Origin: Sphaerisporangium fuscum
Lineage (GTDB): Bacteria > Actinomycetota > Actinomycetes > Streptosporangiales > Streptosporangiaceae
NCBI RefSeq assembly: GCF_018531465.1
Contig: NZ_JAHDTF010000034.1
Coordinates: 62,001-126,000 of the forward strand
Direction: 5' to 3'
Length of the DNA: 64,000 nt
A model generated the notes under the pieces. That model had not been told where the DNA came from. It saw nothing but the letters and a program-made list of their open reading frames with translations, and did no database searches. Shown piece by piece: positions 3,109 through 34,843 of this stretch. A program made the translations under genes and the position numbers. Numbering within the stretch: the stretch's first letter is position 1; every line of letters starts with the position of its first letter.

Positions 3109-3209
3109 CCCTGTTCTCCGCACGAGCCCGAATCTGCCTGGTCAGCGCTGTTTGCGGTCCGCGTCAGTGACCGGCCCAGCTCGATGAGGGCGATGTGCGG
3201 AGAACAGGG
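3109..3209. repeat. Inverted-repeat element, copy 1
   Basis: This is a 101-bp element bounded by a perfect 15-bp inverted repeat (CCCTGTTCTCCGCAC and its complement). Just inside are conserved GAGCCCGAATC and GGGCGAT boxes that extend the stem beyond a GA/GAT internal loop. It lies between convergent acnA and the phosphotransferase gene, whose TAG stop is 5 nt from its right end. Related copies are at 20908-21005 (reversed) and 34737-34843. It could be a MITE/REP-like sequence or a structured 3' element. Confidence 0.8.
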
Positions 3210-3214
3210 GCCGG

Positions 3215-4228
3215 CTAGCCGGACATGCCCAGGGGGCCGTACTCGGCGTCCCCGGTCAACTGTCTTAGAAGGCCGCCGTAGAACCCCCACGCCTGTTCGG
3301 TGTCGGTCGTCCGCCCATGGGGTGCGCGGAACTGGCCGACGTAGACGCCGAGGTCCTCCAGGTCCCAGCGGAGGCGGTGGAGCGTCAGGGCCGACGGGTC
3401 CGGCGCCTGCCCGGTGGCGTCCGCGTAGCGCGCGAGGTCGCCGGCGTCCTCGGCGACCTGCCACAGATCGCGTTCGGGCTCGGCGACGCCCACGGTGTCC
3501 CAGTCGACCAGCAGGAGCCGCTCCCCGAGCCGCAGGAGGTTGCCGGGATGCGGCTCCCCGTGCGTCAGGACCGGCTCCCCGGCCTTCCCGTCGAGCTCGG
3601 CGACCCGCCGGTCGAACTCCTCCAGCCGCCGGCGCAGGCCCGGGGCGTGCTCCGCCAGCAGGGCCCTGGCCGGCCCGGCGTACGGCCCGCCCTCCCAGGG
3701 GCGGTCCAGCTCGCCGAGGCCCTGCTCCAGATGGGCGCGGGTGGAGAGCTCCGGCCGCAGGAGCGGGGCGTGGGACGGCGGCTTCGCCCGGTGCAGTTCG
3801 GCGAGCAGGTCGATGATCGGGGCCCGCTCCGCGGGGGTGAGCGCCCGGCCGAAGTCGCCGGCGACGCCGTCCACGAACGGGAAGACACTGACGGCGTACC
3901 GCTCCCCGAGGCGGCGCAGGGTCTCGCCGCCGGCGTCCGGCAGGGGCGCCACCACGAAGTCCAGCCCCGCCTCGTCGCGCAGCGCCGCGGCGGTGTCCAT
4001 GGCGCGGCGCAGCCCGTCGAAGGCGGCCTCCGCGCCGACGCCGCAGTGCGTCTTGTGCGCCAGGTCGGCCACGGTGACGAACCACCGCCGGTCCCCGTCG
4101 CCGGCCGCCGTCCAGTGGTAGTCGCCGAAGCCGACCGGCGCGTACTCCAGCCGGGCGTCCGCCACGCCCCAGGCGGCCAGGCCGTCCCGCAGCTCGGATT
4201 CGCCGAGCCCTTCGGGTAAATCGTTCAT
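3215..4228 (-). CDS. APH/choline-kinase-fold phosphotransferase
   Basis: This 337-residue protein has the aminoglycoside phosphotransferase fold. The catalytic Brenner motif reads HGEPHPGN and is followed by the metal-binding LLVDWDTV and the AEPERDLW helix, an arrangement like spectinomycin kinases APH(9). The substrate is unknown: it could be an antibiotic or a small hydroxyl compound. The ATG is chosen because TACCTT sits exactly 7 nt upstream, implying a leaderless transcript, and because extending the frame would run into the upstream gene. It ends in TAG, five bases from a repeat element. It is probably a single-gene unit, 41 bp downstream of the anti-sigma gene. Confidence 0.85.
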   Translation of the reverse strand: MNDLPEGLGESELRDGLAAWGVADARLEYAPVGFGDYHWTAAGDGDRRWFVTVADLAHKTHCGVGAEAAFDGLRRAMDTAAALRDEAGLDFVVAPLPDAGGETLRRLGERYAVSVFPFVDGVAGDFGRALTPAERAPIIDLLAELHRAKPPSHAPLLRPELSTRAHLEQGLGELDRPWEGGPYAGPARALLAEHAPGLRRRLEEFDRRVAELDGKAGEPVLTHGEPHPGNLLRLGERLLLVDWDTVGVAEPERDLWQVAEDAGDLARYADATGQAPDPSALTLHRLRWDLEDLGVYVGQFRAPHGRTTDTEQAWGFYGGLLRQLTGDAEYGPLGMSG

Positions 4229-4235
4229 GCCGGCC

Positions 4236-4241
4236 AAGGTA
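4236..4241 (-). promoter_or_regulatory. Leaderless -10 box of the phosphotransferase gene
   Basis: TACCTT read on the minus strand is separated by 7 nt from the ATG at 4228, the spacing expected for transcription starting at the initiation codon. No Shine-Dalgarno sequence is present. Confidence 0.5.
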
Positions 4242-4269
4242 TACGGCCGCGCCTTCGCCGGGCACGTGG

Positions 4270-5232
4270 TTATCTGTCGCGCTCCAGGTCGTAGGTGACG
4301 TCCGCGACCCGCACCGTCGCGACCCGGGGATCCTCGATGATCTTGCGGAGTTCCTCGACGGTTGCGACGGTGTCGACGTAGGCGTAGGTCTGCCCGCCGG
4401 CGGCGGATTCGCGCAGGCGCTTCAGGTTCACGCCGAGCCTTCTCAGGTTGGCGTCGTCGTACTCCCGCAGCGAAGCCACCCAGGCGCGAAAGTTCGCCAG
4501 CTCCTTCGGCACCAGATCGTGGCACGTGCCGCCGTCCATCCCTGAGGTGCTGGGGGACATGTCCCATCCCCAAGTGATCGGGGTGGCACGCGGGCGGTTC
4601 TCGTACACCACCAGATCAGGGCACGAGTCGTACTGTCTGCCGAAGGCGGCGAGCTGATCGGTGCCGAGCGGCGCGGCGAACTCCACGACCGCGAGCGCGT
4701 TCATGGTCCGGGGCAGCCGGGCCAGCACCTTGCGCATGCGGTCCTTGGGCTGGTTGCCGGTCCCGACGTTGTAGAGCGCGTAGGTCAGGGGGGTCTCGGT
4801 CGCGTACCCGAGCGGTGAGTGCAGCACGCGGCCGAAGAAGTCCTGGGTGATCTCGTCCTTGGTGTCCCCGAAGGCGGCCCCGGTGGAGAACGAGCCCTGC
4901 GCCCGCAGCGGGGTGATACCGACGTCGAGGGAGAGTGACAGCGGAGAGGCACTGATGCCGCCCAGCGTGATGCGGTAGCCCGGGTTGGCGATCTGCAGCG
5001 CTGTCCCCAGGACGTCCCGCATGCGCTTCTCCCGGTCGCCGCGCCGCTGGACCCATTCGGAGCCCGCGGTCGCGGCCACGAAGAGCAGCACCAGGGTGAC
5101 GGCGGCCACGAGGCCGGTCCGCAGGACGCCCCTGCGCACGGCCCTGCGGGTCCTCCTGGGGTCGAACTCCGGGATCTCGAAGGCGTCCTCGCCGGGTCCG
5201 GCGGGGTCGTCCGGGGTGGTCGTTCCGGTCAT
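4270..5232 (-). CDS. Membrane-anchored anti-sigma-type regulator
   Basis: A 320-residue protein with a cytoplasmic N-terminal region of about 40 residues, one transmembrane segment (LVAAVTLVLLFVAATAG, about residues 42-58) and a long extracytoplasmic domain. The layout resembles the Sigma_reg_N/Sigma_reg_C sigma-factor regulators of Bacillus and actinobacteria. Its ATG overlaps the sigma factor stop codon (ATGA), so the two are translationally coupled. That supports a role sequestering the cognate ECF sigma factor and sensing an outside signal. No zinc-binding HxxxCxxC motif is visible, so it is not of the ZAS class. The start at 5232 is chosen because upstream extension lies inside the sigma gene. 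Confidence 0.75.
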   Translation of the reverse strand: MTGTTTPDDPAGPGEDAFEIPEFDPRRTRRAVRRGVLRTGLVAAVTLVLLFVAATAGSEWVQRRGDREKRMRDVLGTALQIANPGYRITLGGISASPLSLSLDVGITPLRAQGSFSTGAAFGDTKDEITQDFFGRVLHSPLGYATETPLTYALYNVGTGNQPKDRMRKVLARLPRTMNALAVVEFAAPLGTDQLAAFGRQYDSCPDLVVYENRPRATPITWGWDMSPSTSGMDGGTCHDLVPKELANFRAWVASLREYDDANLRRLGVNLKRLRESAAGGQTYAYVDTVATVEELRKIIEDPRVATVRVADVTYDLERDR

Positions 5233-5760
5233 CGGGAGGCTCCGTACATCTCGGCGAAGGCGGCGCGGGCCCGCCACACGGCGGTCTTGATGGAGGAGGT
5301 GGAGCGGCCGGTCATCGCGGCCACCTCCACCAGGGAGAACCCGTCGAAGTAGACGAGGGTGAGCAGGCGTCGCTGCGGGTCCGGCAGCCGTCCGAGCACG
5401 TCGCGCACCGCGACGGCGTCCGTGACGAGCTCGGGCACGCCGAGGGCCTCGGCGTCGGGAAGGGGCAGTTCGGCGTGTCCGCGACGGAAGTGGTCGGCCA
5501 GCACGTTGCGGGCGATGCTGAGCAGCCAGGCGACCGGCGACTCACCGCGCCAGCCCAGCAGCGCCCGCGTCGCCCTGACGAACGTCTCCTGGGCGAGGTC
5601 TTCGGCCAGGTGCGGGTCACGGGTCCGGCGGAGGAGGTAACCGCAGACCAGGGGCCAGTGCTCCCGGTAGAGGTCTTCGATGCGGGTGCCGATGGTCGCC
5701 TCCGCGTCCGTGGTGGAATCTTCACACCCTGGGAGACGGAGCTCCGGCCCCCTTGGTCAC
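5229..5760 (-). CDS. ECF RNA polymerase sigma factor, frameshifted near its start
   Basis: Sigma-70 region 2 (RDPHLAEDLAQETFVRA, WLLSIARNVLADHFRR) and region 4 (RLPDPQRRLLTLVYFDGFSL, SIKTAVWRARAAF) identify a group IV sigma factor of about 176 residues. The frame encoding it has no ATG, GTG or TTG before region 2. A GTG at 5760 has a good ribosome site (AGGAG) and a TAACCT -10 box, but reads into a stop after 12 codons. Removing one base from the C-tract at 5748-5752 joins this start to the sigma frame. Either the gene is inactivated or switched by slippage, or the tract is a sequencing indel. It is coupled to the downstream anti-sigma gene. Confidence 0.85.
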
Positions 5761-5875
5761 ATCTCTCCTGCCGGGGAGGTTACGCCGCCGGGAGGAGAGC
5801 GGGCCCGGCGGGTGCGACCTCGGTAGCAGGGCGGGATCGGACGTGCGGGCGAGGCGGGCGGGCCGGTGCGGCCCG

Positions 5876-5881
5876 TAGCGT
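5876..5881 (+). promoter_or_regulatory. Leaderless -10 box TAGCGT
   Basis: TAGCGT lies 7 nt before the ATG at 5889, placing the predicted transcription start at that ATG. Confidence 0.5.
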
Positions 5882-5888
5882 GATCCGC

Positions 5889-5915
5889 ATGAGTTCGATC
5901 TTTGATGTCGCGTGA
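5889..5915 (+). CDS. Leaderless 8-codon upstream ORF (MSSIFDVA)
   Basis: The ATG lies 7 nt after a TAGCGT box, and the TGA stop overlaps the GTG start of the hydrolase gene (GTGA). The hydrolase start has no ribosome site, so terminating ribosomes may restart there. The peptide itself may have no function. The alternative is that an undetected frameshift fuses this peptide to the hydrolase. Confidence 0.4.
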   Translation: MSSIFDVA

Positions 5916-6922
5916 GGCGGCGGGGGACCGGTGAGGTGCCGGCGCGTCCGGGCCGGCGCCGTTGGAGGCGGGCGCTGGCGGGGGCGCTCGCCCTGGTCGC
6001 GGTCGTGAGCGTCTGCGGGTGGGCGTACGAGACCCTGGCCCGGCGCGGCGACCCCGCCCGCTATCCCGCGCCGGGACGGCTCGTCGACGTGGGCGGGCAC
6101 CGGCTGCGCCTCGACTGCACCGGCCCACGGGGGAGCGGTCCGACCGTGGTGTTCGAGGCAGGGCTGGGGGAGTCCGGTCTGACCTGGGCGCGGGTGCAGC
6201 AGGAGGTCAGCGGGCCGTCGTCCGGCGGTGGCCTGCGGGCCTGTTCCTACGATCGGGCGGGGTACGCCTGGAGTGAGCCGGGCCCGGGGCCGCGGGACGC
6301 GGGGAGGCTGGCGGGGGAGTTGCACGCCCTGCTCGGCGCGTCCGGCGAGCGCGGGCCGTACGTGCTGGTGGCGCACTCCTACGGCGGGAACGTGACACGG
6401 GTGTTCGCCGACCGGTGGCCCGCCCTCACCGCCGGCCTGGTGCTGGTCGACGTGACCGACGAGCAGGGCGTCGGCGAGCTGCGGATGGCGGAACGGCTCC
6501 TCGGCGTGCAGACGGCGGTCTACGGGGTCGCGGCCCGGGTCGGCGTCGTACGGCTGTTCGGGAGCCGTCTGGTGCCCGGCGGCACGCCAGAGGTCGCGCG
6601 GCGGCAGGCCGCCGTCGTCTACGGCGCCGGCACGATCGCCACCTCGGGCGCGGAGGGGGCGACCTCGGTGGACAGCGCGCGCCAGGTCCAGGCCACCGTA
6701 CGGCCCGGGGCGTGGGGGGCGCGGCCCGTGGTGGTGATCGCCTCCTCCGGCCAGCCGGAGGAGGCGTATGACCACTACGCCGCGCTCGCCCGGCTGAGCA
6801 GCAGGGGCCGGTTCGTCAGGGCCGCCACCGCCGACCACTACGTGCACTACGCCCAGCCGGACCTGGTCGCCGACGCGGTCCGGGACGTGGTGGCCGGGGC
6901 GTTCTCACCTCCACCGAGGTGA
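5912..6922 (+). CDS. Membrane-anchored alpha/beta hydrolase
   Basis: This 336-residue alpha/beta-hydrolase has the nucleophile elbow VAHSYGGN and a C-terminal DHYVHY, giving a plausible histidine of the triad. It starts with an arginine-rich stretch followed by one hydrophobic segment (about residues 20-38), so the catalytic domain is probably outside the cell. The substrate is unknown; esters or epoxides are possible. The start codon GTG overlaps the stop of a short leaderless ORF and has no Shine-Dalgarno sequence. A second in-frame GTG eight codons later is an alternative. The gene stands alone, divergent from the ECF sigma factor. Confidence 0.82.
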   Translation: MRRRGTGEVPARPGRRRWRRALAGALALVAVVSVCGWAYETLARRGDPARYPAPGRLVDVGGHRLRLDCTGPRGSGPTVVFEAGLGESGLTWARVQQEVSGPSSGGGLRACSYDRAGYAWSEPGPGPRDAGRLAGELHALLGASGERGPYVLVAHSYGGNVTRVFADRWPALTAGLVLVDVTDEQGVGELRMAERLLGVQTAVYGVAARVGVVRLFGSRLVPGGTPEVARRQAAVVYGAGTIATSGAEGATSVDSARQVQATVRPGAWGARPVVVIASSGQPEEAYDHYAALARLSSRGRFVRAATADHYVHYAQPDLVADAVRDVVAGAFSPPPR

Positions 6923-6959
6923 CTCTACTTTGTAAAGGACGGCGGACCGGTTCCCGCGC

Positions 6960-8531
6960 TCAGGCCGAGGGCGCCAGGTCGCGGCGGCAGAAGGACGCCA
7001 GCCCCGCCGCGGCCAGGGCCCCGGCCGCGAGGGTCAGGCCGAGGAGCGGCACCGCCGGCGAGGAGGCCTCGCCCAGCAACGTCCCCGGCACGTGCACGAA
7101 CGGCGACAGATCCTGCACGAACCCGCCCGCCAGCTTGAACTCCGCCAGCAGGTCCACCAGCAGGATGAGGCCGAACACGGTCCAGCTCACGGCCGCCGCC
7201 GGCCGGGGCAGCACGCCGAACAGCAGCGTCGCGAGCCCGACCACGGTCCACACCGCGGGCAGGTAGGCCAGCGTGGCGCCGGTGACGCGGACCACCTCGC
7301 CGTCGTAGGCGAGGCCCGCCGCCGCGCCCAGGGCGGTCAGCGACAGCGCGGGGCCCGCGACGGCGAACAGCAGGTGGCTCAGCGCCCAGCGCAGCCGGCC
7401 GACCGGGGTGGCCAGCAGTATCTCCGCCCGCCCCGCCGCCTCCTCGCCCCGGGCCCGCAGCGCCGACACCAGCGCCGCACCCGTGACGAGCTGGCTGAGG
7501 ACGTAGATCATGAACGTGAAGAACACGTCCGAGATGCGGGCGCCGGAGCCGCCGATCGTGGTGGCGAACTCCCGGAACTGCGGCGTGTCCAGCTGGGCGT
7601 CCAGCCCGTGCGCCGCCGCGCCGAGCAGCGCGCCCAGCAGCCCGAACCCGATCGCGAAGCCCGCCAGCGTGCCGCGGTGCAGCCGCCCGGCCAGGCCGAA
7701 CGGGCCCCGCAGGGTTCCGGCGGCGGGTCCGGGGCGGGCGGGCATCAGGGCGCCGGCCACGTCACGCCGGGCCGACAGCGCGAACGCGGCCGCGGCCAGG
7801 GCGGCGGCGAACGCCCCGAACAGCCCCAGCACCCACCACTGGTCGCCGGCGTAGGGCCTGGTCAGCCGGGCCCACCCGAACGGCGACAGCCACGCGAGCC
7901 AGGGGACGCCACCCGCGTCGCCCACCGAACGCAGTGCGAACAGCAGGCCGCCGGCGGCGATCGCGGTGCCGCGCGCCGTGCCGGACGAGGCGGAGAGCTG
8001 CGCGGTGACGGCGGCCACGGCCGCGAACGCCGAGCCGCCTCCGGCGGTGGAGAGCCCGAACAGCAGCGACGATCCCGCGGGCAGCCCGGCGGCGGCCAGG
8101 CCGGGAACCGACAGCAGGGCCGTCAGCAGGCCGGCGGCGACCACGACCGCGAGCGCGGCGGCCAGCGGGGCATGGCGGCCGACGACGCCCGACGCCAGCA
8201 GCTCGCGCCGGCCGGTCTCCTCCTCGGCCCGGGTGTGCCTGATCACCAGCAGGGCGCTGACCAGGCCCGCGATCAGCACACCGGACGAGCCGAGCGTCCA
8301 GGCGGTCAGGCCGCCGACGCTCGCGTCGTAGATGACGCCGCGGGTGGCGAGCTGGGCGGGGTTGTCCATGGAGGCCGCCGCGAACGCCTCGCGGGCCGCC
8401 TGGTCGCCGTACAGGCGGGTGGTGGCGGACGCGACGGCCGCCGGGAGCAGCGCGCTGATCGCGATCCACACCGGCAGCAGGACGCGGTCCCTGCGCAGGA
8501 TGAGCCGGATCAGCGTCCAGGTGCCGCTCAT
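6960..8531 (-). CDS. ABC-2 exporter permease, polyketide-antibiotic exporter type
   Basis: This 523-residue membrane protein has about 12 hydrophobic helices in two pseudo-repeats. Each half is introduced by a polar segment rich in [13 protein letters not shown] or [15 protein letters not shown], which is characteristic of the TnrB3-like 'exporter of polyketide antibiotics' family. It forms the membrane channel for the ATPase encoded immediately upstream, whose stop overlaps this ATG. The exported compound is unknown. The operon is TetR - ATPase - permease on the minus strand. Confidence 0.9.
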
Positions 8532-9418
8532 CTCGCGGCTCCCTCGTAGTGGCGCAGGAACAGCTCCTCCAGCGTCGGCGGCTGCGTGGTCACCGCGCGC
8601 ACGCCGGCCCTGGCCAGCTCGGCGAGCACCGGCGTGAGGGCGTCGGCGTCCACCTGGCAGTGCAGCCGGGCGCCGTCCACGGTGAGGTCGTGCACGCCGG
8701 GCAGCGCGGCCAGGCCGTGGGCCGGTCCGGCCAGCTCGGCCGTCACCGAGGTGCGGGTGAGGTGGCGCAGGTCGGCCAGGCTGCCGGACTCGACGGTACG
8801 GCCGGCGCGGATGATGCTCACGCGGTCGCACAGCGTCTCCACCTCCGAGAGGATGTGGCTGGACAGCAGGACGGTGCGGCCGCCGCGCTTCTCCCGCAGC
8901 ACGCACTCGTTGAAGACCGCCTCCATGAGCGGGTCGAGGCCCGAGGTCGGTTCGTCCAGCACCAGCAGGTCCACGTCGGAGGCGAAGGCGGCCACCAGCG
9001 CCACCTTCTGCCGGTTGCCCTTGGAGTAGGTGCGGCATTTCTTGCGCGGGTCGAGTTCGAAGCGTTCGAGCAGTTCGGCGCGCCGCCGGGGGTCGAGGCC
9101 GCCGCGCACCCTGCCCAGCAGGTCGATGACCTCCCCGCCGGTCAGCGAGGGCCACAGGGTGACGTCGCCGGGCACGTAGGCGAGCCTGCGGTGCAGTTCG
9201 GCGGCGTCCCGCCAGGGGTCTCCGCCGAGCAGGTCGACCCGGCCGCCGTCGGCGCGCATCTGGCCCAGCAGGATGCGGATGGCGGTGGTCTTGCCCGCGC
9301 CGTTGGGGCCGAGGAAGCCGTGTACCTCGCCCGTCCTGACGACGAGGTCGAGCCCGTCGAGCGCCCTGGTGGGGCCGAAGGTCTTGACCAGGCCCTCCAT
9401 GCGTACCGCCGCCTTCAC
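8528..9418 (-). CDS. ABC exporter ATP-binding protein, DrrA-like
   Basis: This 296-residue ATPase has Walker [10 protein letters not shown] (about residues 36-44), a C-loop reading YSKGNRQK in place of LSGGQ as in DrrA-like antibiotic exporters, and Walker [14 protein letters not shown]. It carries a C-terminal accessory region of about 80 residues. It partners with the coupled permease. Its start overlaps the stop of the TetR gene by four bases, making one translationally linked unit. Confidence 0.93.
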
Positions 9419-10041
9419 TGCCGGCCCTCGAATCGTTCGAGGCCCGTCCGTGCCTGCTCGAACAGCTCGCGGCCCAGGAACTCCGGCCTGATCAGGTCGA
9501 GCTGGGCCCTGCCGGTGCGCAGCGCGCCCTGCGGGCTGTGGAGGTCGGTGCCGAGAGCGCGGGAGACGTGCTCGTGCAGCACGGTGATGCCCAGTTTCAT
9601 CGCCGTCAGCACGGTCGCGCGGGCGCGGTGGTCGGCCTGCGGGTCGTCGTCGCGGGACAGATGCTTCTCCGTCACGCTCACGAGCTCGTCGAACATGGCG
9701 GCGGCCCCGGGGGAGCCGTCCACCAGTGCGCGGCCGAGGTACTTCATCAGCGGTGGCGCGGTGCGGTGGACGCTCTCGACGAACTCGGGCTTCTCCAGGT
9801 TGCGCCCGGTGATGCCCGTCTCGACCTGCTCGCGCACGTAGCTGAGGACGTATTCGTCGCAGGCGTGCCTCAGCTCCTCCTTGGAGCCGAAGTGGTGCTG
9901 CACCAGGCCGGGCGAGACGCCGGCCGCCTCGGCGATGCCCCGGATCGTGGTGGCCTTGACCCCCCGCTCGGCGAACAACGCCATCGCGACGTCGCGAATG
10001 CGGGCTCGCGCCGTGAGGTCCTCTTCAGATACTGGTCGCAT
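9415..10041 (-). CDS. TetR-family regulator of the ABC exporter
   Basis: A 208-residue TetR/AcrR repressor. The N-terminal helix-turn-helix reads [21 protein letters not shown], and the rest is a helical ligand domain. I place the start at the ATG encoding MRPVSEEDL (10041). A longer reading from 10074 would run through a 30-bp palindrome that is almost certainly the operator. It is co-transcribed with the exporter, so autorepression would induce the pump when a ligand binds. Confidence 0.9.
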
Positions 10042-10054
10042 GTCCAAGGATTTA

Positions 10055-10084
10055 AACACCTGTATGGGTGCCAATACAAGTGTT
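10055..10084. promoter_or_regulatory. TetR operator (30-bp inverted repeat)
   Basis: Arms AACACCTGTATGGG (10055-10068) and CCAATACAAGTGTT (10071-10084) match at 12 of 14 positions as an inverted repeat, around a TG centre. The site lies 14 bp upstream of the TetR start, a normal position for an autoregulated TetR operon. Confidence 0.75.
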
Positions 10085-10101
10085 CAATGAGCTCATCGGT
10101 G

Positions 10102-10557: not shown

Positions 10558-10580
10558 CGCGCATCTCCCTCACCATCGTG

Positions 10581-10633: not shown

Positions 10634-10651
10634 TGATTTTCGGGAGGATCG

Positions 10652-12030: not shown

Positions 12031-12055
12031 CTGGTGGAAAAGGGAGGAGCGCATC

Positions 12056-13280: not shown

Positions 13281-13287
13281 CGACATC

Positions 13288-20785: not shown

Positions 20786-20907
20786 GCCGGTATGTCTCCC
20801 TAAAGACGATGATTACGCCAGTTGCCGGATTTAGGACGGGCATACCGGGTGGTTACGGCCCGGGTCCGCCGCCCACGCGGTCCCGGGCCGCTGCGAAAGG
20901 TTCTCAG

Positions 20908-21005
20908 GCCCGCTTTCCGCACATCGCCCGCGTCTGTCTTGGCCGACCACGCACAGCGCAGGACCGTGGACGGCGTCCGGATTCGGGCTCGTGCGGAGAA
21001 CAGGC
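20908..21005. repeat. Inverted-repeat element, copy 2 (reversed)
   Basis: This 98-bp copy lies in the opposite orientation to copies 1 and 3. Read on the minus strand it starts CCTGTTCTCCGCACGAG, directly after the TAG stop of the metallopeptidase gene at 21006, and ends with GGGCGATGTGCGGA. The arms match at 11 of 14 positions. The centre differs from the other copies. Confidence 0.78.
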
Positions 21006-21794
21006 CTAGGCGACCGTGGCCGAGCCGGCGCTCCAGGTGTTGCAGCCGGAGGGGGAGACCGCCTTGAAGCCCCGGTCGAGCCACTCGGCGATGTTGCGCC
21101 CCTTGCCGTGGTCGCGGACGTCGGTGGTCTCGTCGCCGCTCTCCAGGTCGTCCCGCAGCAGGGTCTTCCAGTCCTGGCCGGTACGGTCCAGGGAGGTCCA
21201 GATGCTGCCGATGAACACCCCGGCCAGGCACTCGGCCTGCAGCTCGTGGCGGCGCGTCTGCTCGAGGTACTCGGCCTTGCCGCGGTTGGGCAGGCGGTCC
21301 AGGGCGTGCGACATCCCGGCCATGTTCTGCACGTGGTGCCCGTACTCGTGCGCGATCACGTCCATGAGGAAGAGGTCCTCGGGGTGGTCGACGACGCTCT
21401 TGTCCAGCATCACGGTGATCTGGCGGGTCTCGTCGCAGTACAGGGCCTGGACGTCCTTGCCCCACTTCTCGCCGCAGACGCGCTGTGGGGTGGTGATGAA
21501 TTTCACACGCGGCTTGACGAAACCGATGCCCGCCTTGGCGAACTGGGCGCTCCACGCGGTGTCCAGGCACTTCAGCAGCGGGGTGAGGTAGTTGCGGACC
21601 GAGGCGACGTCGCCGGCCCGGACGGCGGGCTCGGGGCAGTTGGTGCCCGCGAGGCGGCCGGAGGCGTACAGGGCGTTGTGCGTGAGGACCGTGGCGTTCT
21701 CGACCGGGTAGGCGGCCGGGGCGGCCTGGGCGGTGCCTCCCAGGAACAGGCTTCCGACCAGGGCAAAAAGCAGGGCAAACGTGGGCTTTCGCAT
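21006..21794 (-). CDS. Secreted neutral zinc metallopeptidase (YpfJ-like), copy A
   Basis: A 262-residue paralogue of the neighbouring gene. It has a classical signal peptide (MRKPTFALLFALVGSLFLGG, cleavage after AQA), the HEYGHH zinc motif, ELQAECLAG, and conserved NCPEP, RVCGEKW and LYCDE cysteines. It ends in DHGKGRNIAEWLDRGFKAVSPSGCNTW, nearly the same as copy B, pointing to tandem duplication. Substrates are unknown for the family. Its TAG stop directly abuts the inverted-repeat element. Confidence 0.88.
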   Translation of the reverse strand: MRKPTFALLFALVGSLFLGGTAQAAPAAYPVENATVLTHNALYASGRLAGTNCPEPAVRAGDVASVRNYLTPLLKCLDTAWSAQFAKAGIGFVKPRVKFITTPQRVCGEKWGKDVQALYCDETRQITVMLDKSVVDHPEDLFLMDVIAHEYGHHVQNMAGMSHALDRLPNRGKAEYLEQTRRHELQAECLAGVFIGSIWTSLDRTGQDWKTLLRDDLESGDETTDVRDHGKGRNIAEWLDRGFKAVSPSGCNTWSAGSATVA

Positions 21795-26712: not shown

Positions 26713-26727
26713 GGGCCGGCGGCCCTC
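26711..26727 (+). terminator. Hairpin at the LacI stop codon
   Basis: GAGGGCC-GGC-GGCCCTC is a perfect 7-bp stem that starts within the stop codon. Confidence 0.5.
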
Positions 26728-26842
26728 CCCTTACCCGCTGGGGACGGTGTGTCCATCGGCGCCGGGTCGGCGAAGTGGAGTACGGCGAAGCCGGCGCCCC
26801 CGTACGGCGAGCGGCCGGTGGAACGCCGCACGGGAACGCCGC

Positions 26843-28090
26843 TCAGCCGAGGAGGTCCTCCTTGCCGGCCAGGCGGATCAGGGCCTTCGACAGCGGGCGC
26901 GCGGTCAGGCCGATCTGCCACTCGCGGGCGCCCAGGGCACGCAGGCGGGCCGCCACCGACTCCTCGCCGAGGTCGTCCGGCGGCTCCCAGGTCAGGCGGC
27001 GGATCGCCTCGGGCTGCAGCAGGTTCTCGGTCGGCATGCGGTGCTCGTCGGCCAGCGCCGCGACGGCGGCCCGCGCCGTCGCCAGGCGCCTGGCGGCCGC
27101 CGGATCGCGGTCGGCCCAGCGGTTCGCCGGGGGCGGTCCCTCGCCGGGGCCGGTCGGCTGCGGGAGCTGCCCGTCGGGCAACGCGCGGGCCTTGTTGACG
27201 GCGTTGAGCCAGGCCCGCAGATGGCGGCGCGCGCTGCGGCCGGTGAACGGCGTGATCTCCGTCAGGGCCTTCGTCGTGCGCGGCTGCTCCAGCGCGGCCG
27301 CCACGATCGCCGAGTCGGGCAGCACCCGCCCCGGCGCGAGGTCGGCCTCCCGGGCCAGCTCGTCGCGCAGCGTCCACAGCTCACGCACCACCGCCAGGCC
27401 GCGCAGGGAACGCACCTTGTGGATGCCGGAGGTGCGCCGCCACGGGTCGGTGCGCGGCGGGGCCGGGGGAGCGGCCAGGATGGAGGCGAACTCCTCCAGC
27501 GCCCACTCGAGCTTCCCGCTGTCGGTCAGCTCGTCGTACAACTTGTCGCGCAGCTCGATCAGCACCTCGACGTCGAGCGCGGCGTAGCGCAGCCAGGCCT
27601 CCGGGAGCGGGCGGTGCGACCAGTCGGCCGCGGAGTGGCCCTTCTCCAGGCGCAGGCCGAGGACGTTCTCGACCATCGTGCCGAGTCCGACGCGCTCGTA
27701 GCCGAGGAGCCGGCCGGCCAGTTCGGTGTCGAACAGCTTGCGAGGGGTGAAGCCCAGCTCGGCCAGGCAGGCGAGGTCCTGCGTGGCGGCGTGCAGGACG
27801 ACCTCGGCGTCGGCCAGCACGGCGTCGAGCTCGGAAAGGTCGGGGCAGGCGGTGGGGTCGATGAGGGCGCTGCCGGCTCCGGCGCGGCGCAGCTGCACGA
27901 GGTAGGCGCGCCCGCTGTAGCGGTAGCCCGACGCGCGTTCCGCGTCGACGGCGACGGGGCCGGTGCCCTTGGCGAACGCGCGTACGGCCGCCGCGAGCGC
28001 GGCGGGGTCCTCGATGACCGGCGGGATCCCCTCTCGGGGCTCCAGGAGCGGCACTATTTCGGATGCGGGGATGATTTCGTCGTCGGTCAC
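26843..28090 (-). CDS. rnd: Ribonuclease D (DEDD exonuclease with HRDC domain)
   Basis: This 415-residue 3'-5' exoribonuclease trims tRNA and other stable RNA ends. The DEDD residues begin with VAVDAERA (D and E), then ATQDLACL and the RYAALDVEVLIEL motif. An HRDC domain follows around residues 215-300. The GTG start overlaps the DUF3000 stop (GTGA). Pairing of RNase D, DUF3000 and nearby hemE is a conserved actinobacterial arrangement. Confidence 0.93.
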   Translation of the reverse strand: MTDDEIIPASEIVPLLEPREGIPPVIEDPAALAAAVRAFAKGTGPVAVDAERASGYRYSGRAYLVQLRRAGAGSALIDPTACPDLSELDAVLADAEVVLHAATQDLACLAELGFTPRKLFDTELAGRLLGYERVGLGTMVENVLGLRLEKGHSAADWSHRPLPEAWLRYAALDVEVLIELRDKLYDELTDSGKLEWALEEFASILAAPPAPPRTDPWRRTSGIHKVRSLRGLAVVRELWTLRDELAREADLAPGRVLPDSAIVAAALEQPRTTKALTEITPFTGRSARRHLRAWLNAVNKARALPDGQLPQPTGPGEGPPPANRWADRDPAAARRLATARAAVAALADEHRMPTENLLQPEAIRRLTWEPPDDLGEESVAARLRALGAREWQIGLTARPLSKALIRLAGKEDLLG

Positions 28091-28689
28091 GTCCTGAAGG
28101 ACTCCGGGTCTTCGCGACGCGCGGACCGCGGCGGGAGGGCCGCGACGTCGGGTGGCAGGGGTGGAATGCCCGCCGCGAGGCAGATCAGGTCGCACCAGGC
28201 GGCGACGTGCGCCGAGAGGTCCTCCTCCAGGGGGGACCAGGAAGCGCGCAGCTCCAGCTCGGTGGTGACCGGGTCGTCGGCCTTGTTGCCGAACCCCTCG
28301 GACACCGCCCGGGTGACCGTGCCGCCGGCGGCGGCGTAGCGTGCGTGGTGGGAGTCGAGGGCCTCGGTGAGCCAGCTCCACGCCACCGGCCCCAGCATGG
28401 GGTCGGAGGTGATCTCCGGCTCCATGTCGGCGCGGACGTAGGCGACCAGCCGGAACGGGCCGTCCCAGCCGCGTTGCCCGTCGGGGTCGAAGAGCATGAT
28501 CAGGCGGCCGACCGCGAGCTCGTCGTCGTCGCGGTAGACCGAGGCGCCCACGGCGCCGGAGTAGGGCGCGAGCCGCTGGGGAGCGGGGATGTCCTCCAGC
28601 TCGATCTCGGGCCTGACCTGGGCGGGACGCAGGCTCGCGAGGGCCCGCCGGAAGGCGGCGGGGGCCGGCGGCGCGTCACCGATGGTCAT
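28087..28689 (-). CDS. DUF3000 family protein
   Basis: A 200-residue actinobacteria-specific protein of unknown function. Recognisable segments are FRRALASLRPAQVRPEIELEDIPAPQRLAPYS and PMLGPVAWSWLTEALD. It is translationally coupled to RNase D. The ATG is fixed by TACGCT 6 nt upstream, which indicates a leaderless message. Confidence 0.9.
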   Translation of the reverse strand: MTIGDAPPAPAAFRRALASLRPAQVRPEIELEDIPAPQRLAPYSGAVGASVYRDDDELAVGRLIMLFDPDGQRGWDGPFRLVAYVRADMEPEITSDPMLGPVAWSWLTEALDSHHARYAAAGGTVTRAVSEGFGNKADDPVTTELELRASWSPLEEDLSAHVAAWCDLICLAAGIPPLPPDVAALPPRSARREDPESFRT

Positions 28690-28695
28690 GATGGC

Positions 28696-28701
28696 AGCGT
28701 A
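28696..28701 (-). promoter_or_regulatory. Leaderless -10 box of DUF3000-rnd
   Basis: TACGCT on the minus strand lies 6 nt before the ATG at 28689. Confidence 0.5.
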
Positions 28702-28758
28702 GGCCGGGGCGGGCGGTGCCGGAAGCAGGGGGGTATGCGCTTGGGACATCGATGGTGA

Positions 28759-28917
28759 TCAATCCGCCATCACCGGGGCGTCGCCACGCTTCCCGTAGAC
28801 CCTGTGGCCGTGATGGTCGTACCCGTCGAGGCGCGGTCGTCGCCCGGACTCCGGTTTGGCGGCACGGAGCGCACAAGGCACAGTGCGGTGCTCGGAGGAA
28901 CTCCACATCGCGGTCAT
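28759..28917 (-). CDS. Possible small protein (52 aa)
   Basis: The frame begins MTAMWSSSEHRTVPCALRAA and ends GKRGDAPVMAD. A GAAAGG ribosome site is present, and third-position GC is fairly high but below neighbouring genes. No domain is recognised. It may be spurious. Confidence 0.3.
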   Translation of the reverse strand: MTAMWSSSEHRTVPCALRAAKPESGRRPRLDGYDHHGHRVYGKRGDAPVMAD

Positions 28918-29486
28918 CGCGGGCCTTTCGTCGGGTCCCATGATCGAGAGTTCGCACGGACAGGAATGCGCGTCGCCTGGCCGGCGCTCCCCGTCGCGCG
29001 CCTTGTCCGTGAACTCGACGGCTGGTCCGACGTTGACACGTCACGGCGACATTTCCCCGCAACGCGCTCGGCGTGTCCCGAAAGTGGTCACCGAATCGGT
29101 GCCGCGCGGTGATTTGACCAACGTTTGAGCCAGCCGCGACATGAGCCCGGACCTAACGTGAGACGTACTGTACCTGCGCTTTCCGACCCGTTGACACCGG
29201 CGACCGGCGCACGGGGCTCCCGCTTGCTCTATCGAATCAGACATAGTGTACGTATCACACCCCGCAAGGCCGTGACCGGACATGATTCGGGTAACCCGCA
29301 ATTCCCGCCAGCCCAGCCCTCGCCGTACGCCGGCCTCACCCCTCGCCGTACGCCGGCGCCGGACCGCCCCCGGCGTGCCGCCCGGCGGACGTCGGCGCGG
29401 CGACGAAGAGAGGCCGAGGTCGTGGTGCGGGTGGAGGGGGTGTACGCGGTGCGCCGACCGGTCCTGCCGCGTGGCACCCTGGTTAC
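28918..29486. other. Long intergenic region upstream of hemE
   Basis: About 570 bp without a convincing gene. It has lower GC than its surroundings from 29090 to 29300, with GTGT-N7-ACAC symmetry near 29246-29260, and an 18-bp direct repeat at 29317-29357. It probably holds the hemE promoter and regulatory sites. Confidence 0.5.
29317..29357. repeat. 18-bp direct repeat upstream of hemE
   Basis: CCCTCGCCGTACGCCGGC occurs at 29317-29334 and again at 29340-29357, with a 23-bp period. Each unit contains a near-palindromic GGCGTACGGCG core (complement strand), so these could be tandem protein-binding sites. Confidence 0.55.
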
Positions 29487-30524
29487 GTGAATCCCGAGAC
29501 CGCCGAATCACCCTTCATCCGCGCCTGCCGGGGCCTGTCCGTGCCGCACACCCCGGTCTGGTACATGCGCCAGGCGGGGCGCGCGCTGCCCGAATACCGG
29601 GCCGTCCGCGCCGACGTGCCGATGCTCACCGCGTGCGCCACCCCCGACCTCATCGTGGAGATCACGATGCAGCCCGTGCGCCGCTACGGCGTGGACGCGG
29701 CGATCTTCTTCAGCGACATCGTCGTGCCGCTGAAGGCCATCGGGATCGACCTCGACCTCAAGCCCGGCGTCGGCCCCGTGATCGCCGACCCGATCCGCGA
29801 CGCCTCGGGCCTCGCGCCCCTGCGGCCCCTTTCGGCCGAGGACGTCCCCTATGTCACCGAGGCCGTGCGGGCGCTGGTCAAGGAGCTCGGGTCCACGCCC
29901 CTCATCGGCTTCGCCGGGGCGCCGTTCACGCTGGCGTCCTATCTCATCGAGGGCGGCCCCTCGAAGAACCACGACCACACCAAGGCCATGATGTACGGCG
30001 AGCCCGAGCTGTGGCACGCCCTGATGGACCGCCTCACGGGCATCACGATCACCTACCTCCGCACCCAGATCGAGGCCGGCGCGTCGGCGATCCAGCTGTT
30101 CGACTCCTGGGTCGGCGCGGTCGCCCCCGACGACTACCGCGAGTTCGTCCTGCCGTACACCAGCCGCATCTTCGCCGGCGTGGCCGACCTCGACGTGCCG
30201 CGCATCCACTTCGGCGTGGGCACCGGCGAGCTGCTCGGCCTGCTCGGCGATGCGGGGGCCGACGTCGTCGGCGTCGACTGGCGGGTCCCGCTCGACGAGG
30301 CCGCGCGCCGTGTCGGGCCGGGCAAGGCACTGCAGGGCAACCTCGACCCGGCCGTGCTGTTCGCGCCCTTCGAGGTCGTCGAGCGCCGCGCCCGCGACAT
30401 CCTGGCCCGGGGTCGCGCCGCCGAGGGGCACGTGTTCAACCTCGGCCACGGCGTCCCGCCCTCCGCCGACCCCGACCAACTCACCCGCCTCACCGACCTC
30501 GTCCACGAGGCCACCACCTCCTGA
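29487..30524 (+). CDS. hemE: Uroporphyrinogen decarboxylase
   Basis: This 345-residue enzyme decarboxylates uroporphyrinogen III to coproporphyrinogen III in heme synthesis. Both family signatures are present: [13 protein letters not shown] (about residue 26) and [17 protein letters not shown] (about 137). GTG is the start; there is no ribosome site, and CACCCT 6 nt upstream may be a weak leaderless -10 box. It lies 5.5 kb from nothing else of the early heme pathway but 1.2 kb from hemY and hemQ. Confidence 0.96.
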
Positions 30525-30543
30525 CCCGCCCACGGGGACGGAT

Positions 30544-30561
30544 CCCTCCGGTGTCGGAGGG
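30544..30561. terminator. hemE terminator
   Basis: CCCTCCG-GTGT-CGGAGGG is a perfect 7-bp stem between convergent hemE and the DUF4349 gene; it may serve both. Confidence 0.6.
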
Positions 30562-30623
30562 AAGGGCGATGGTTCCGGCGCCGGTCGCGGTGGGTGACCC
30601 GCCGGGGCGAACGGCGGGGCCGG

Positions 30624-31610
30624 TCAGTCCTCGGAGGCCGCCGGCGCCGGGCGTTCCGGCGCCTGTGAAGCCGGTTCCCCCGTTGCCGGTGGCTGCGGTG
30701 CCGCAGGCGGCCGAGGGACCGTGGTCGTGGTACGGCGGGTTCGCCGGCGTAGCAGGCGGAAGGCCAGCACCATCAGGGCCAGGGGGATCGCCCAGGGCAG
30801 GAGCACGCCGGCGCCGGTCACGGCGACCTTGACGCTGGTCACCAGGGCGTGCCAGCCGGTCTTGAGGCCGCCCAGGAAGCCCGACGGCTCGTCGTCCGTC
30901 TCCGGGAGTACGGCGGCGGGCCCGACCAGGCGCAGGGTCAACGTGGCGGCGGCCGTCTGCGCGGCCAGCACCTTCTGGCGGGCCTCCAGCGACTCCAGGT
31001 CGGCCTCCCTGCTGGAGATCTCCCGCTCGATGGACAGCACCTCACCGATCGTCTTGGCCTTGCCCAGCAGCGCGCGGAGCTGGTCGAGCGACGAGCGGGC
31101 GGACTTCAGCCTGCTCTCCACGTCGGCGACCTTCTCGGTGACGTCCTCGGTGCCCTGCTGGAGCGCCTCGCGCTTGCCGAGGACCTTCCCGAGCTGGTCG
31201 AGGACCGCCGGGTAGCGGTCCGGCGGGATCTTGAAGACCAGGGTGGCGCTCTCCTCCCCGCTGCCGGAGGCCGACTCCTCGTGGTCGAGGCGGCCCCCGG
31301 CGCCGGTGACGATCTGCTTGGCCCTGTCGGCGGCCGCGGCGACGCTCTTGGCGCGCACCGTCATGTCGCCGGTGTAGATGATCGCCCGCTCGGGCTGCCG
31401 TATCCGCACCTTGGACAGGCCGCCGGGCGACCTCATGGGCACCGTGTCGCCGTTCTGCGGGGACGGGACGGCACCCTCGTCCCGCAGGGGCGCGGGCGCG
31501 CCGGCCGCCGAGCCCTCCGTCTTGACCGCCCCGCCGGCGCACCCGGAGACGACGAGGACGACCGCCGCCAGCGCCGCGGCGAGCGGCGGACCACACCGTG
31601 ATCTGCTCAT
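30624..31610 (-). CDS. DUF4349 lipoprotein
   Basis: A 328-residue protein with lipobox VSGC and a conserved DUF4349 domain (RAIIYTGDMTVRAKSVAAAA, then KIPPDRYPAVLDQL). It then has a predicted coiled coil at about residues 165-220 (KVADVESRLKSARSSLDQL, EISSREADLESLEARQ), and finally a C-terminal transmembrane segment and a Pro-rich tail. It would be held at the outer face of the membrane at both ends. Function is unknown. The ATG at 31610 puts the signal peptide correctly at the N-terminus. Confidence 0.88.
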   Translation of the reverse strand: MSRSRCGPPLAAALAAVVLVVSGCAGGAVKTEGSAAGAPAPLRDEGAVPSPQNGDTVPMRSPGGLSKVRIRQPERAIIYTGDMTVRAKSVAAAADRAKQIVTGAGGRLDHEESASGSGEESATLVFKIPPDRYPAVLDQLGKVLGKREALQQGTEDVTEKVADVESRLKSARSSLDQLRALLGKAKTIGEVLSIEREISSREADLESLEARQKVLAAQTAAATLTLRLVGPAAVLPETDDEPSGFLGGLKTGWHALVTSVKVAVTGAGVLLPWAIPLALMVLAFRLLRRRTRRTTTTVPRPPAAPQPPATGEPASQAPERPAPAASED

Positions 31611-31721
31611 ACCCTGTTGACGAAAGCCGGGAGGCGCGGGTTTGGTGACCGCCGTCACGATGCGGTCACGTTCTCGCCCACATTGATCGAGGTCGGCGGA
31701 GCGACCGCCTACCTGGGCGGG

Positions 31722-31727
31722 TAACGT
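31722..31727 (+). promoter_or_regulatory. Leaderless -10 box of hemY
   Basis: TAACGT lies 8 nt before the ATG at 31736, with no ribosome site. Confidence 0.5.
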
Positions 31728-31735
31728 CTGAAGGC

Positions 31736-33184
31736 ATGGAAGGGACTCGCCCGCACGTCGTGGTGGTCGGCGCAGGCATCGCCGGTCTGGCCGCGGCGTG
31801 GCACCTCCGCCAGGAGGACGACCGCCTCGCGGTGACCGTGCTCGAAGGCTCCCCGCGCATCGGCGGCAAGCTGCACGCCTCCGAGGTCGCCGGCATACCG
31901 GTCGACGAGGGCGCCGAGGCCATGCTGGCCCGCCGCCCCGAGGGCAAGGAGCTCGCCCGCGTGGCCGGGCTGGGCGACCGGCTGGTGCACCCCGCGCCCG
32001 TGGGAGCGTCGATCTACAGCAGGGGCGCGCTGCGGGCGATGCCCAAGGGGCACGTCATGGGCGTCCCCTCCGACGTGGCCGAGCTCGGGCGTTCGGGCAT
32101 CCTGTCGCCCGCGGGCTTCGTCCGGGTTCCGCTCGACCAGATCCTGCCCGCCACCCTCATCAGCTCCGACGTGTCGGTCGCGGCGTACATCCGCGCCCGC
32201 ATGGGTGGCGAGGTCGTCGACCGGCTGGTGGAGCCGCTCCTCGGCGGCGTCTACGCCGGGCGGGCCGAGTTCCTGTCGCTGGACGCCACGATGCCGCACA
32301 TCGCGACCGCGGCCCGCACCGAGCGGTCACTGCTCAGGGCCGCGCGCGAGATCTCCCAGGACGCCCCGAAGAACGCCGGTCCGGTGTTCACCACGATCGA
32401 GGACGGCATGGGCGCCCTGCCCGGCGCGGTCGCCGCGGCGTCCGGCGCCGACGTCAGGACCGGCGTCATGGTCCGCGAGCTCAAGCGCACCCGCGACGGC
32501 TGGCGCCTGGTCACCGGGCCGGCCCGCGCCCCCGAGACGATCGAGGCCGACGCCGTCATCGTGGCGGTCCCCGCGCCCGCGGCCGGGCGCCTGCTCGCGG
32601 ACGAGGTGCCCAAGGCCGCCGCCGAGCTGGCCCGTGTCGAGTACGCCAGCATGGCCATCGTCACCCTCGCCTACCCTCGCTCGGCGTTCCCCGAGCAGCC
32701 CTCGGGCAGCGGCTACCTCGTGCCCTCGGTCGAGGGGCGGGCGGTGAAGGCCGTGACGTTCAGCACGGTGAAGTGGCCCCACCTGGCCGCGGCCGACCCG
32801 GGTCTGCTGGTGCTGCGCTGCTCCATCGGGCGCCTCGGCGAGGAGTACCTCCTCCAGCGCGACGACGGCGAGCTCGTGGCGATGGCGATGGCCGAGATGG
32901 CGGAGGTCATGGGGGTCCGCGGGCTTCCGGTGGACAGCCGGGTGACCCGCTGGGGCGGCGCCCTGCCGCAGTACGACGTGGGCCACCTCGACCGGGTCGC
33001 GCGCGTGCGGGCCGCGGTCGCCGTGCAGCCCGGCCTCGCGGTGTGCGGCGCGGCGTACGACGGGGTGGGTGTCCCGGCGTGCGTGGCCACCGGCCGTACG
33101 GCCGCGGCGAAGGTCCTGGCGTACCTGGCGGAGGACCACGGAGGAGAATGGCACGAGGACAGGCGGACGGCGGGCACCCGCTGA
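31736..33184 (+). CDS. hemY: Coproporphyrinogen III / protoporphyrinogen oxidase
   Basis: This 482-residue FAD enzyme has the N-terminal [17 protein letters not shown] dinucleotide fold and the C-terminal [18 protein letters not shown] flavin motif. In actinobacteria this HemY-type enzyme oxidises coproporphyrinogen III to coproporphyrin III (also called CgoX), as the adjacent hemQ supports. The start is fixed by the leaderless promoter. Confidence 0.95.
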
Positions 33185-33239
33185 GCGGCCGGCCGTGCCG
33201 AGTGATCGAAGCCGTCGATTGGGAAGGCGAGTACGACCA

Positions 33240-33941
33240 GTGACCGAGAGCAACGCGAAGCCGAAGGCCCGCGATCTCAACCAGGTGATCCGCTACACGA
33301 TGTGGTCGGTGTTCCGGGTGCGTGAGCCGCTGCCGGGCGACCGCACGCAGGTGGCCCACGAGGTGCAGGCCGTGCTCTCGCAGGCGGCCGAGAAGGACGT
33401 CGTGACCCGGGGCTCCTACGAGGTGGCCGGCTTCCGGGCCGACGCCGACTACATGTTCTGGTGGCACGCCTCCACTCCGGACGACCTCCAGGAGGTCTAC
33501 GGCCGCTTCCGGCGCACGTCGCTGGGGCGGGCGAGCGAGCCGGTGTGGTCGGTGATGGCGCTGCACCGTCCGGCGGAGTTCAACAAGTCCCACATCCCCG
33601 CGTTCCTCGCCGAGGAGGAGCCGCGGGGCTACGTCTCGGTCTACCCGTTCGTCCGGTCGCTGGAGTGGTACCTCCTGGACGACTCCGAGCGCCGCGCGAT
33701 GCTGGCCGAGCACGGGCGCATGGCCCGGGGGTACCCCGACGTGCGGGCGAACACGGTGGCGTCGTTCGCGCTGAACGACTTCGAGTGGATCCTCGCCTTC
33801 GAGGCCGACGAGATGCACCGCATCGTCGACCTGATGCGCGATCTGCGGGCGGCGCAGGCGCGCCGGCACACCCGTCTGGAGATCCCGTTCTACGCCGGCA
33901 CCCGCAAGCCGCTGGAGGAGCTGGTGGCGGCCCTGCCGTAG
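33240..33941 (+). CDS. hemQ: Coproheme decarboxylase HemQ (chlorite-dismutase family)
   Basis: This 233-residue member of the chlorite-dismutase-like family converts coproheme to heme b, the last step of the coproporphyrin-dependent pathway. Recognisable blocks are [26 protein letters not shown] and [12 protein letters not shown]. The GTG start follows GGAAGGCGAG. It lies 55 bp after hemY and is probably co-transcribed. Confidence 0.95.
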
Positions 33942-34068
33942 CCGCGCCCAACCGGACAAAGCCCTTCGTTCATCACTTCAGTCGCAAACGCCACCACGGC
34001 TGGTTTTCCGGGAACAAGTCACCTCAGTTTCCGATCTCTGGCATACTCGGTGTGATTCCCGTGTCTAC

Positions 34069-34728
34069 GTGAGGCAGAGGGTGAACAGGGGCAGAAGTCT
34101 GGCGCGTTCCAGGCGAGGGGGGCAACACCGGCGGCGCAAGTCCGGCCGCCGACGGGTTCTCGAGTATGTGGCGGGGCTGGCCGCCGTGGCGGTGCCCGCC
34201 GTGGCGATCGGCGCGGTGTTCGCGAGCCCGGGTGGCGGTTCGGCCGCCTCCGGGGCGGAGTGGGCGCCGCCCAGCGTGGCCGCGGCTCCGGCGACGACCG
34301 GTGCCGCCCAGGCCATGGGCGATCCCGCCGGTGACGGCGGCAAGGTCTCGACGGCGAGCAAGCGCGTCAAGAAGGCGCGCGACCCCGCCGATACGGCGTC
34401 GGGCCCGTCGAAGCACACCGACACCAAGGCCGTGACGTATTTCAAGCAGCGCTGGGCGAAGGACAAGGCCGTCAAGCGCATCACCGACATCAGGACGGTG
34501 GGCAAGTACCTCCGGATCTACACCAACCTCCCGGAGAACGCCCACAACTCCAAGTCGGCGATCGACCTGTGCAAGCGGGGCCTCGAATACCTCTCCAAGG
34601 AGGTCGGCGAGCAGAGCCCGGTGGTGTTCGTCCAGGCGCAGTTCGGCCAGAACGGCAACCCGGTGCTCGCCAACGTCATCGGCCCCGGCGACCACTCCTG
34701 CCGCCTCAGCGCGCCCGACCCCAAGTAG
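34069..34728 (+). CDS. Membrane-anchored extracytoplasmic hypothetical protein
   Basis: A 219-residue protein with a strongly basic N-terminus (RSLARSRRGGQHRRRKSGRRR), one membrane segment (about residues 32-52) and a low-complexity Ala/Gly linker. A compact C-terminal domain of about 90 residues (TYFKQRWAKDKAVKRITDIRTV onward) contains two cysteines. The domain resembles small extracellular sensors, but I do not recognise a family. GTG 34069 has no clear ribosome site; GTG 34081 is an alternative. Its TAG stop is 8 bp from repeat copy 3. Confidence 0.75.
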   Translation: MRQRVNRGRSLARSRRGGQHRRRKSGRRRVLEYVAGLAAVAVPAVAIGAVFASPGGGSAASGAEWAPPSVAAAPATTGAAQAMGDPAGDGGKVSTASKRVKKARDPADTASGPSKHTDTKAVTYFKQRWAKDKAVKRITDIRTVGKYLRIYTNLPENAHNSKSAIDLCKRGLEYLSKEVGEQSPVVFVQAQFGQNGNPVLANVIGPGDHSCRLSAPDPK

Positions 34729-34736
34729 GGCTCCTA

Positions 34737-34843
34737 GGCCTGTTTTCCGCACGAGCCCGAATCTCCCTGGTCGGTCGCTACATGCGGTCCGGCACTATCA
34801 GTGATCACCGCAGGTCATTGAGGGCGATGTGCGGAAAATGGGC
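34737..34843. repeat. Inverted-repeat element, copy 3
   Basis: A 107-bp element between convergent genes. Its ends read GCCTGTTTTCCGCAC and GTGCGGAAAATGGGC. Compared with copy 1, a C-to-T change in the left arm is matched by a G-to-A change in the right arm, so the stem is kept. Internal GAGCCCGAATC and GAGGGCGAT boxes are conserved. Its right end meets the TAG stop of the small zinc-ribbon gene. Confidence 0.8.

Follow-up and report, generated by a model that had tools for sequence, protein, structure and literature searches.

What is the imperfect palindrome of roughly 100 bp that occurs three times, each time with a different centre, in a 64,000-nucleotide stretch of the genome of Sphaerisporangium fuscum? 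This stretch, called the window here, is G000:C25:62001-126000, where G000 denotes the species' own genome assembly (10.13 Mb, 93 contigs). We judge it very probable, at about 0.85, that the palindrome is a miniature inverted-repeat transposable element (MITE), a non-autonomous, gene-less DNA transposon. MITEs are a known kind; this family is new and belongs to one actinobacterial lineage. Its unusual feature is that it lands on stop codons.

Three copies in the window

An earlier note on this DNA had placed three copies in the window, the second of them reversed, and reading the sequence confirmed both the positions and the orientations. With their flanking 6-mers and the nearest stop codons, the copies are arranged as follows.

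3104..3109, plus strand: left target-side 6-mer of copy 1 (CCGGGC; not CTAG-like)
3110..3208, plus strand: element copy 1, 99 bp
3209..3214, plus strand: right target-side 6-mer of copy 1 (GGCCGG; 1 of 6 letters equal to the left)
3215-3217: TAG stop of the minus-strand gene 3215-4228, directly adjoining the right 6-mer of copy 1
20903..20908, minus strand: right target-side 6-mer of copy 2 (CCTGAG on the minus strand; 4 of 6 letters equal to the left)
20909..21004, minus strand: element copy 2 (L009), 96 bp
21005..21010, minus strand: left target-side 6-mer of copy 2 (CCTAGG)
21006-21008: TAG stop of the minus-strand gene 21006-21794, inside the left 6-mer of copy 2
34733..34738, plus strand: left target-side 6-mer of copy 3 (CCTAGG), 4 bp past the TAG stop of the gene 34168-34728
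34739..34842, plus strand: element copy 3, 104 bp, 97% identical to the copy at G000:C19:133654-133768
34843..34848, plus strand: right target-side 6-mer of copy 3 (CCTACG; 5 of 6 letters equal to the left)

Three perfect matches to the 21-base left arm, TTYTCCGCACGAGCCCGAATC, stand in the window, against 0.01 occurrences expected from shuffled sequence with up to three mismatches. The right arm also occurs three times and is weaker alone: 0.49 occurrences are expected when three mismatches are allowed, and 2 of 100 shuffles reached three. In the alignment, read by eye, the consensus of the left half is NCTAGG / CCTGTTTTCCGCAC-GA-GCCC-GA-ATC-TC-CCTGG, followed by a variable centre, and that of the right half is CCAGG-TC-GAT-GA-GGGC-GAT-GTGCGGAAAAYGGG / NCTAGG. 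The inner boxes and the unpaired GA/GAT described earlier are present in the copies, and inverted ends of 14 bp, CCTGTTTTCCGCAC / CCCRTTTTCCGCAC in alignment A2, provide terminal inverted repeats. Without the target 6-mers, the element measures 42-114 bp (median 94) and contains no gene. Across 29 aligned copies, which were chosen mostly by the left arm so that left-arm conservation is flattered, departure from consensus is about 5% in the arms and about 20% in the centre, in keeping with the earlier remark that the centres differ.

Copies across the genome and elsewhere

The element extends well beyond the window. When up to two mismatches are allowed, the genome contains an 18-base core of the element 30 times, and the reversed control pattern not once. 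A covariance model built from the 29 aligned copies (alignments A2 and R1) returned 61 matches; 15 of these repeat another match on the opposite strand, and 46 places remain. Because the model scored no more than 150 candidates, the copy count is a lower bound (at least 45). Two of the 46, on C17 and C80, have matching flanks and appear to be one place assembled twice, so that 45 are distinct. They are L021 (C17:44626) and L025 (C80:38904), which hold the same element within the same neighbouring sequence; the assembly has an estimated contamination of 6.95%, which bears on this duplicate. The 45 include one short remnant of a left end, which adjoins another copy at C8; there, one copy sits at the left-end CTAGG of a truncated copy that is older.

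Some copies that are almost identical stand in unrelated surroundings. The C19 copy that is 97% identical to copy 3 has flanks that agree with those of copy 3 at only 57% and 65%, and the copies on C39 and C45 are likewise 97% alike in unrelated flanks; flank identity between copies has a median of 62%, against 97% for the best element pairs. The earlier note had made its reading depend on there being further copies genome-wide and on arms better conserved than their flanks; about 45 copies exist, and their arms are more conserved than both centre and flanks.

The exact arm pattern is absent from 10 congeneric genomes. With up to two mismatches, it matched once in 296 other genomes of the family, without a right arm; GTDB-220 contigs gave three arm matches, all without a right arm, in a collection from which records close to this genome may be missing. 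With up to three mismatches, 393 other genomes of the class gave four arm matches; the model accepts none of these as an element, its two matches among them reaching 11.9 bits at best, whereas the weakest accepted copy scores 18.8. Plasmids, phages and viral contigs contained no match to the arm pattern. The model found nothing in 40 stretches (265 kb) of relatives; strongly diverged copies may lie elsewhere in those genomes. Among the papers listed, none has a title or abstract opening describing the element or a MITE landing on stop codons in actinobacteria.

Target site, direct repeats and empty sites

On both sides of the element lies a target of about 6 bp with the consensus NCTAGG. We compared the left and right 6-mers in the 41 of 45 copies that have recognisable ends, the other four having been dropped before the count. 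They agree directly at 141 letters, where shuffled pairings give 124.6 (p = 0.0012). Taken singly, the variable first base is the same on both sides in 22 of 41 copies (12.6 expected) and the sixth letter in 31 (27.1 expected, p = 0.023). When perfect CTAG pairs are excluded, the six letters still agree directly at 111 places where 100.1 are expected (p = 0.020), and in inverted order at 76 where 71.2 are expected (p = 0.14). Perfect 6-bp direct repeats flank six of the 41 copies: TCTAGG in L002, L004, L014 and L024, CCTAGG in L006, and CCTCGG in L003, which is not CTAG and therefore argues for true duplication. L030 carries CTGAGG on both sides if its right end is shifted one base further on; copy 1 of the window has no target repeat.

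Relatives supply the corresponding sites without the element. At L014, all six relatives examined read GGAATC TAG GTG with no element; this genome reads GGGATC TAGG-element-TCTAGG TGG, that is, the element stands between two TCTAGG. At L024, L015 and L021 the flanks match relatives across the element once one copy of the repeat is omitted (judged by eye). At the stop that carries copy 2, relative G005 shows a CCTAGG with no element in it, and at the place of copy 3 relative G002 has 20 bases between the flank matches, against 163 here. The earlier suggestion that the arms are recognised by a transposase draws support from these empty sites, from the direct repeats and from the many copies in unrelated flanks.

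MITEs are shorter than about 600 bp. At 42-114 bp without a transposase gene, with inverted ends, 45 dispersed places and a target duplication, though one whose repeat is imperfect in most copies, the element answers to that description.

Position on stop codons

Genes were predicted with a home-made codon-usage caller trained on this genome rather than taken from a reference annotation. A neighbouring gene ends on a TAG of the flanking target in 27 of the 45 copies, at the left end in 20 and at the right end in 7; the context of this TAG is CTAG in 20 cases and GTAG, TTAG or ATAG in the remainder. A TGA inside the left target is the stop in two further copies (L011, L030), and L029 has a left-target TGA stop in addition to its right-end TAG. 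Altogether, 42 of the 45 lie on a predicted gene end or within 60 bp of one, the exceptions being L017, L027 and the C8 remnant.

Outside elements, CTAG occurs 83 times in 302 kb, against about 780 occurrences expected from base composition. Ten of the 83 are stops, 11 are coding, 34 lie between co-directional, 21 between divergent and 3 between convergent genes, and 4 are at edges. Because only 10 of these 83 background sites are TAG stops, stops are over-represented among occupied sites. Random insertion into CTAG as the sole explanation is rejected on the same count, which suggests that target preference must be joined by selection against other sites. The enrichment thus probably reflects choice of target together with loss of insertions in promoters and coding regions, a loss that purifying selection would bring about.

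Orthologues were sought in ten relatives for 14 gene ends (of 34), with 70 loci inspected among the matches listed, and were found for 12 of the 14 (11 TAG and one TGA, giving 66 comparisons); L013 and L166 had none among the matches listed. In 59 of the 66 comparisons the stop is at the same codon, and the genes are therefore not cut short. For TAG copies, the orthologue also ends in TAG in 34 of 60 comparisons, against 44 of 258 stops (17%) outside elements. At L014, L015, L021, L162 and L024 it does so in 33 of 34, and for these copies the proposal that the element always brings its own TAG is rejected. At L001, L004, L012, L016, L167 and L168 it does so in 1 of 26; here either the lineage may already have acquired the TAG when the element arrived, or the arrival itself may have altered the flank.

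Two copies have individual features. At L022 (G000:C24:80584-80689), the gene appears to read through the left end of the element, its stop being a TAG in a changed inner box, 32 bases past the point where the left target 6-mer starts; the protein may thus have been lengthened by the element. L014 (G000:C45:131548-131662), with its perfect repeat, occupies a gap of about 10 bp between two co-directional genes and is a natural test of the effect of the element on a downstream gene.

We infer a transposase, and with it a transposase family, that would act in trans and recognise the 14-bp inverted ends plus the asymmetric inner boxes. Insertion would take place into an NCTAGG of about 6 bp, which would end up on both sides of the element. 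CTAG is scarce in this high-GC genome, and some of its occurrences are TAG stop codons; insertion at such a TAG would copy the stop, and the gene would stay intact. Elements inserted in promoters or within coding sequence would disappear, and those that remain would be concentrated on or just after stop codons.

Observations that weigh against a transposon

Several results count against this interpretation. For the CTAG core alone, direct agreement between left and right is not above shuffles (p = 0.24), because the core is nearly fixed, and inverted agreement is slightly above them (96 against 88.4, p = 0.041). At least two of the six target letters differ in 13 of 27 strong copies, the arms of which are almost intact. 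L009 (window copy 2), L026 and L028 have CTAGG on the left and CTGAG on the right, and for the same two-letter difference seen three times simple decay is a poor explanation. Finally, the orthologues of the gene at copy 2 end at or near the same residue in ten relatives, and in 7 of the 10 they end in TGA rather than TAG; G001 has TAG in another context, and G004 has no stop there.

The search for a parent also told against it. A search of this genome for the end pattern returned small elements, remnants and weak places with three mismatches, and no autonomous element. DDE_5 was rejected as the parent, its four matches lying at three places in the genome with other ends. The Y1 family (PF01797, RAYT-type), to which the earlier note had pointed, gave 0 matches in the assembly in a search that was positive in 5 of 14 control genomes, E. 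coli included, and DDE_Tnp_1_4 gave no match in this genome. A parent with these ends was thus found nowhere in the genome among DDE_5, Y1 and DDE_Tnp_1_4, IS5 being among the families not searched, and the arm pattern revealed none sharing these ends in the 393 other genomes of the class. Single-arm leftovers were rejected as the ends of an autonomous element; the ten regions concerned are small or truncated elements or have no arm.

Divergence of the copies and their hairpins

Among the 44 loci that the model defines, the arms of 27 strong copies deviate from consensus by 4.5% and their centres by 20%; for 17 weak copies the values are 19% and 24%. We then compared arm divergence by repeat quality, leaving out seven polymorphic arm positions and allowing a one-base target shift. 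Strong copies with good repeats (0-1 mismatch, 14 of 27) have arms 1.6% and centres 19% off consensus, and because their arms have diverged so little and their centres so much, most of the variety of centres lies between source lineages. Where strong copies have worse repeats (two or more mismatches, 13 of 27), the arms are still 2.2-2.5% off consensus: either their repeats were never exact, or their arms are held in place by selection. The decaying arms of the weak copies speak against strong in-place constraint, which is suggestive in the strong copies and not in the weak ones.

One extension of the transposon reading builds on this constraint, namely that a stop-safe transposon lineage spread and its copies were then kept as 3'-end modules. 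If this is true, the host would be selecting on the installed element as a terminator, transcript stabiliser or protein-binding site, and arms that stay near 2% in strong copies despite disagreeing 6-mers would be its mark. We regard this extension as unlikely.

Quite unlikely, in our estimate, is that the element is a structured RNA, a bidirectional terminator or an mRNA 3'-end element that is kept because its hairpin works in the transcript. Such a role would suit the 42 of 45 copies at gene ends, the strong-copy arms that are far closer to consensus than the centre (4.5% against 20%) and remain near 2% even where the target 6-mers disagree, and the RNA folding of the three window copies on the element strand, which is far better than that of shuffles (z = -6.3, -4.5 and -7.6); the last is so because any palindrome must fold in this way. 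A first count over 19 pairs, target-repeat pairs included, also favoured it, with 8 cells changed on both sides against 2.9 in shuffles. However, that signal comes from the two outermost pairs, which are the target repeat, and vanishes without them: over the 17 pairs inside the element, 3 cells changed on both sides against 1.5, with 72 of 500 shuffles as high, and 1 pair shows paired changes against 0.9. Selection for paired structure, one of the two explanations that the earlier note had offered, is therefore rejected. The C-to-T change between copies 1 and 3 that it had seen matched by G-to-A is real, and all three cells changed on both sides fall at this pair, but its reading as compensation does not hold: among the 29 copies the pair is UA in 18, CG in 3, UG in 2 and unpaired in 6, and the structure overall does not surpass that of shuffles. 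Given no excess of covariation, recognition by an enzyme seems a better reason for the conserved arms than a structure preserved in RNA.

Further evidence against a role in the transcript comes from the hairpins and their setting. No T-run trails the hairpins of copies 1-3 (by eye), as one would at an intrinsic terminator, and a terminator scan restricted to short loops found none at copy 3. Rfam models gave 0 matches in the window at gathering score. The arms of weak copies decay almost like the centre, as expected without in-place constraint, and L014 lies in the narrow gap between co-directional genes.

Recombination sites and REP elements

The R and L boxes of integron attC sites contain GTTRRRY. 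A cassette with an attC-like or other tyrosine-recombinase site, in which the 6 bp would be an overlap region and not a DDE duplication, could account for an imperfect palindrome with a variable centre directly after stop codons, and for left and right 6-mers that often differ, as coupling sequences would; but the A2 consensus contains no GTTRRRY-type box (by eye), the 6-mers agree beyond shuffles and there are no cassette genes, and we hold this reading to be highly improbable. Scarcely credible is a repetitive extragenic palindrome (REP) or bacterial interspersed mosaic element (BIME) moved by a REP-associated tyrosine transposase (RAYT, of the Y1 family), for although the element is palindromic, lies at gene ends and has a left foot, CTAGG, resembling the GTAG tag of one REP super-family (PMC3733652), the assembly has no Y1 match, the repeats stand on both sides instead of forming a one-sided tag, and the median length is 94 bp against the 20-40 bp that the same paper gives for REPs.

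Significance and a neighbouring repeat

The element points to a simple route by which a selfish element could colonise gene ends without harming genes, because its preferred target can contain a stop codon that is copied on insertion. It also offers a resource for testing how a hairpin at a stop codon affects expression, namely a set of hairpin insertions at 3' ends that have decayed to different degrees and whose orthologous sites in relatives lack the element.

A different repeat of about 60 bp lies between convergent genes at 26750-26825 of the window. Among the matches listed, it occurs at many dispersed places in at least 5 of 10 congeneric genomes, and 302 kb of this genome contain one other place (L176, 78%). 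It is possibly a genus-wide intergenic repeat.

Comparison with known systems

REPs, as PMC3733652 describes them, are palindromes with a one-sided GTAG or CGTC tag. REP/BIME systems with RAYT share with the present element a palindromic form and a position at gene ends; the element differs in its two-sided CTAG-like 6-mers, in being mostly longer and in the lack of a Y1 gene in its assembly.

IS5 duplicates a Py-T-A-Pu tetranucleotide, most often CTAG, according to PMC5493358. The two therefore share a CTAG target core that is duplicated on insertion, but IS5 duplicates 4 bp, whereas the repeat described here includes the base before CTAG and probably one after it.

In kind the element resembles the bacterial MITEs, such as Correia elements and ERIC/RU-1, that are treated in PMC2229807: short, gene-less sequences with inverted ends, present in many dispersed and mostly intergenic copies with direct target repeats. 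Unlike those, the present element has no sequence match in the collections searched and is found in one species only, its NCTAGG repeat of about 6 bp often covers a stop, and no parent was found.

The same genome holds a transposon of its own with a similar habit. At G000:C27, a DDE_5 transposon (L157:1390-2755), which we take to be IS701-type, carries CTAG plus the ends TACTCCAGCATCAGTTTGTGATCT on both sides. These ends are unrelated to CCTGTTTTCCGCAC, yet the transposon, like our element, has landed on a TAG stop, one of its flanking CTAGs holding that of a neighbouring minus-strand gene, and it is one independent example of the same landing rule.

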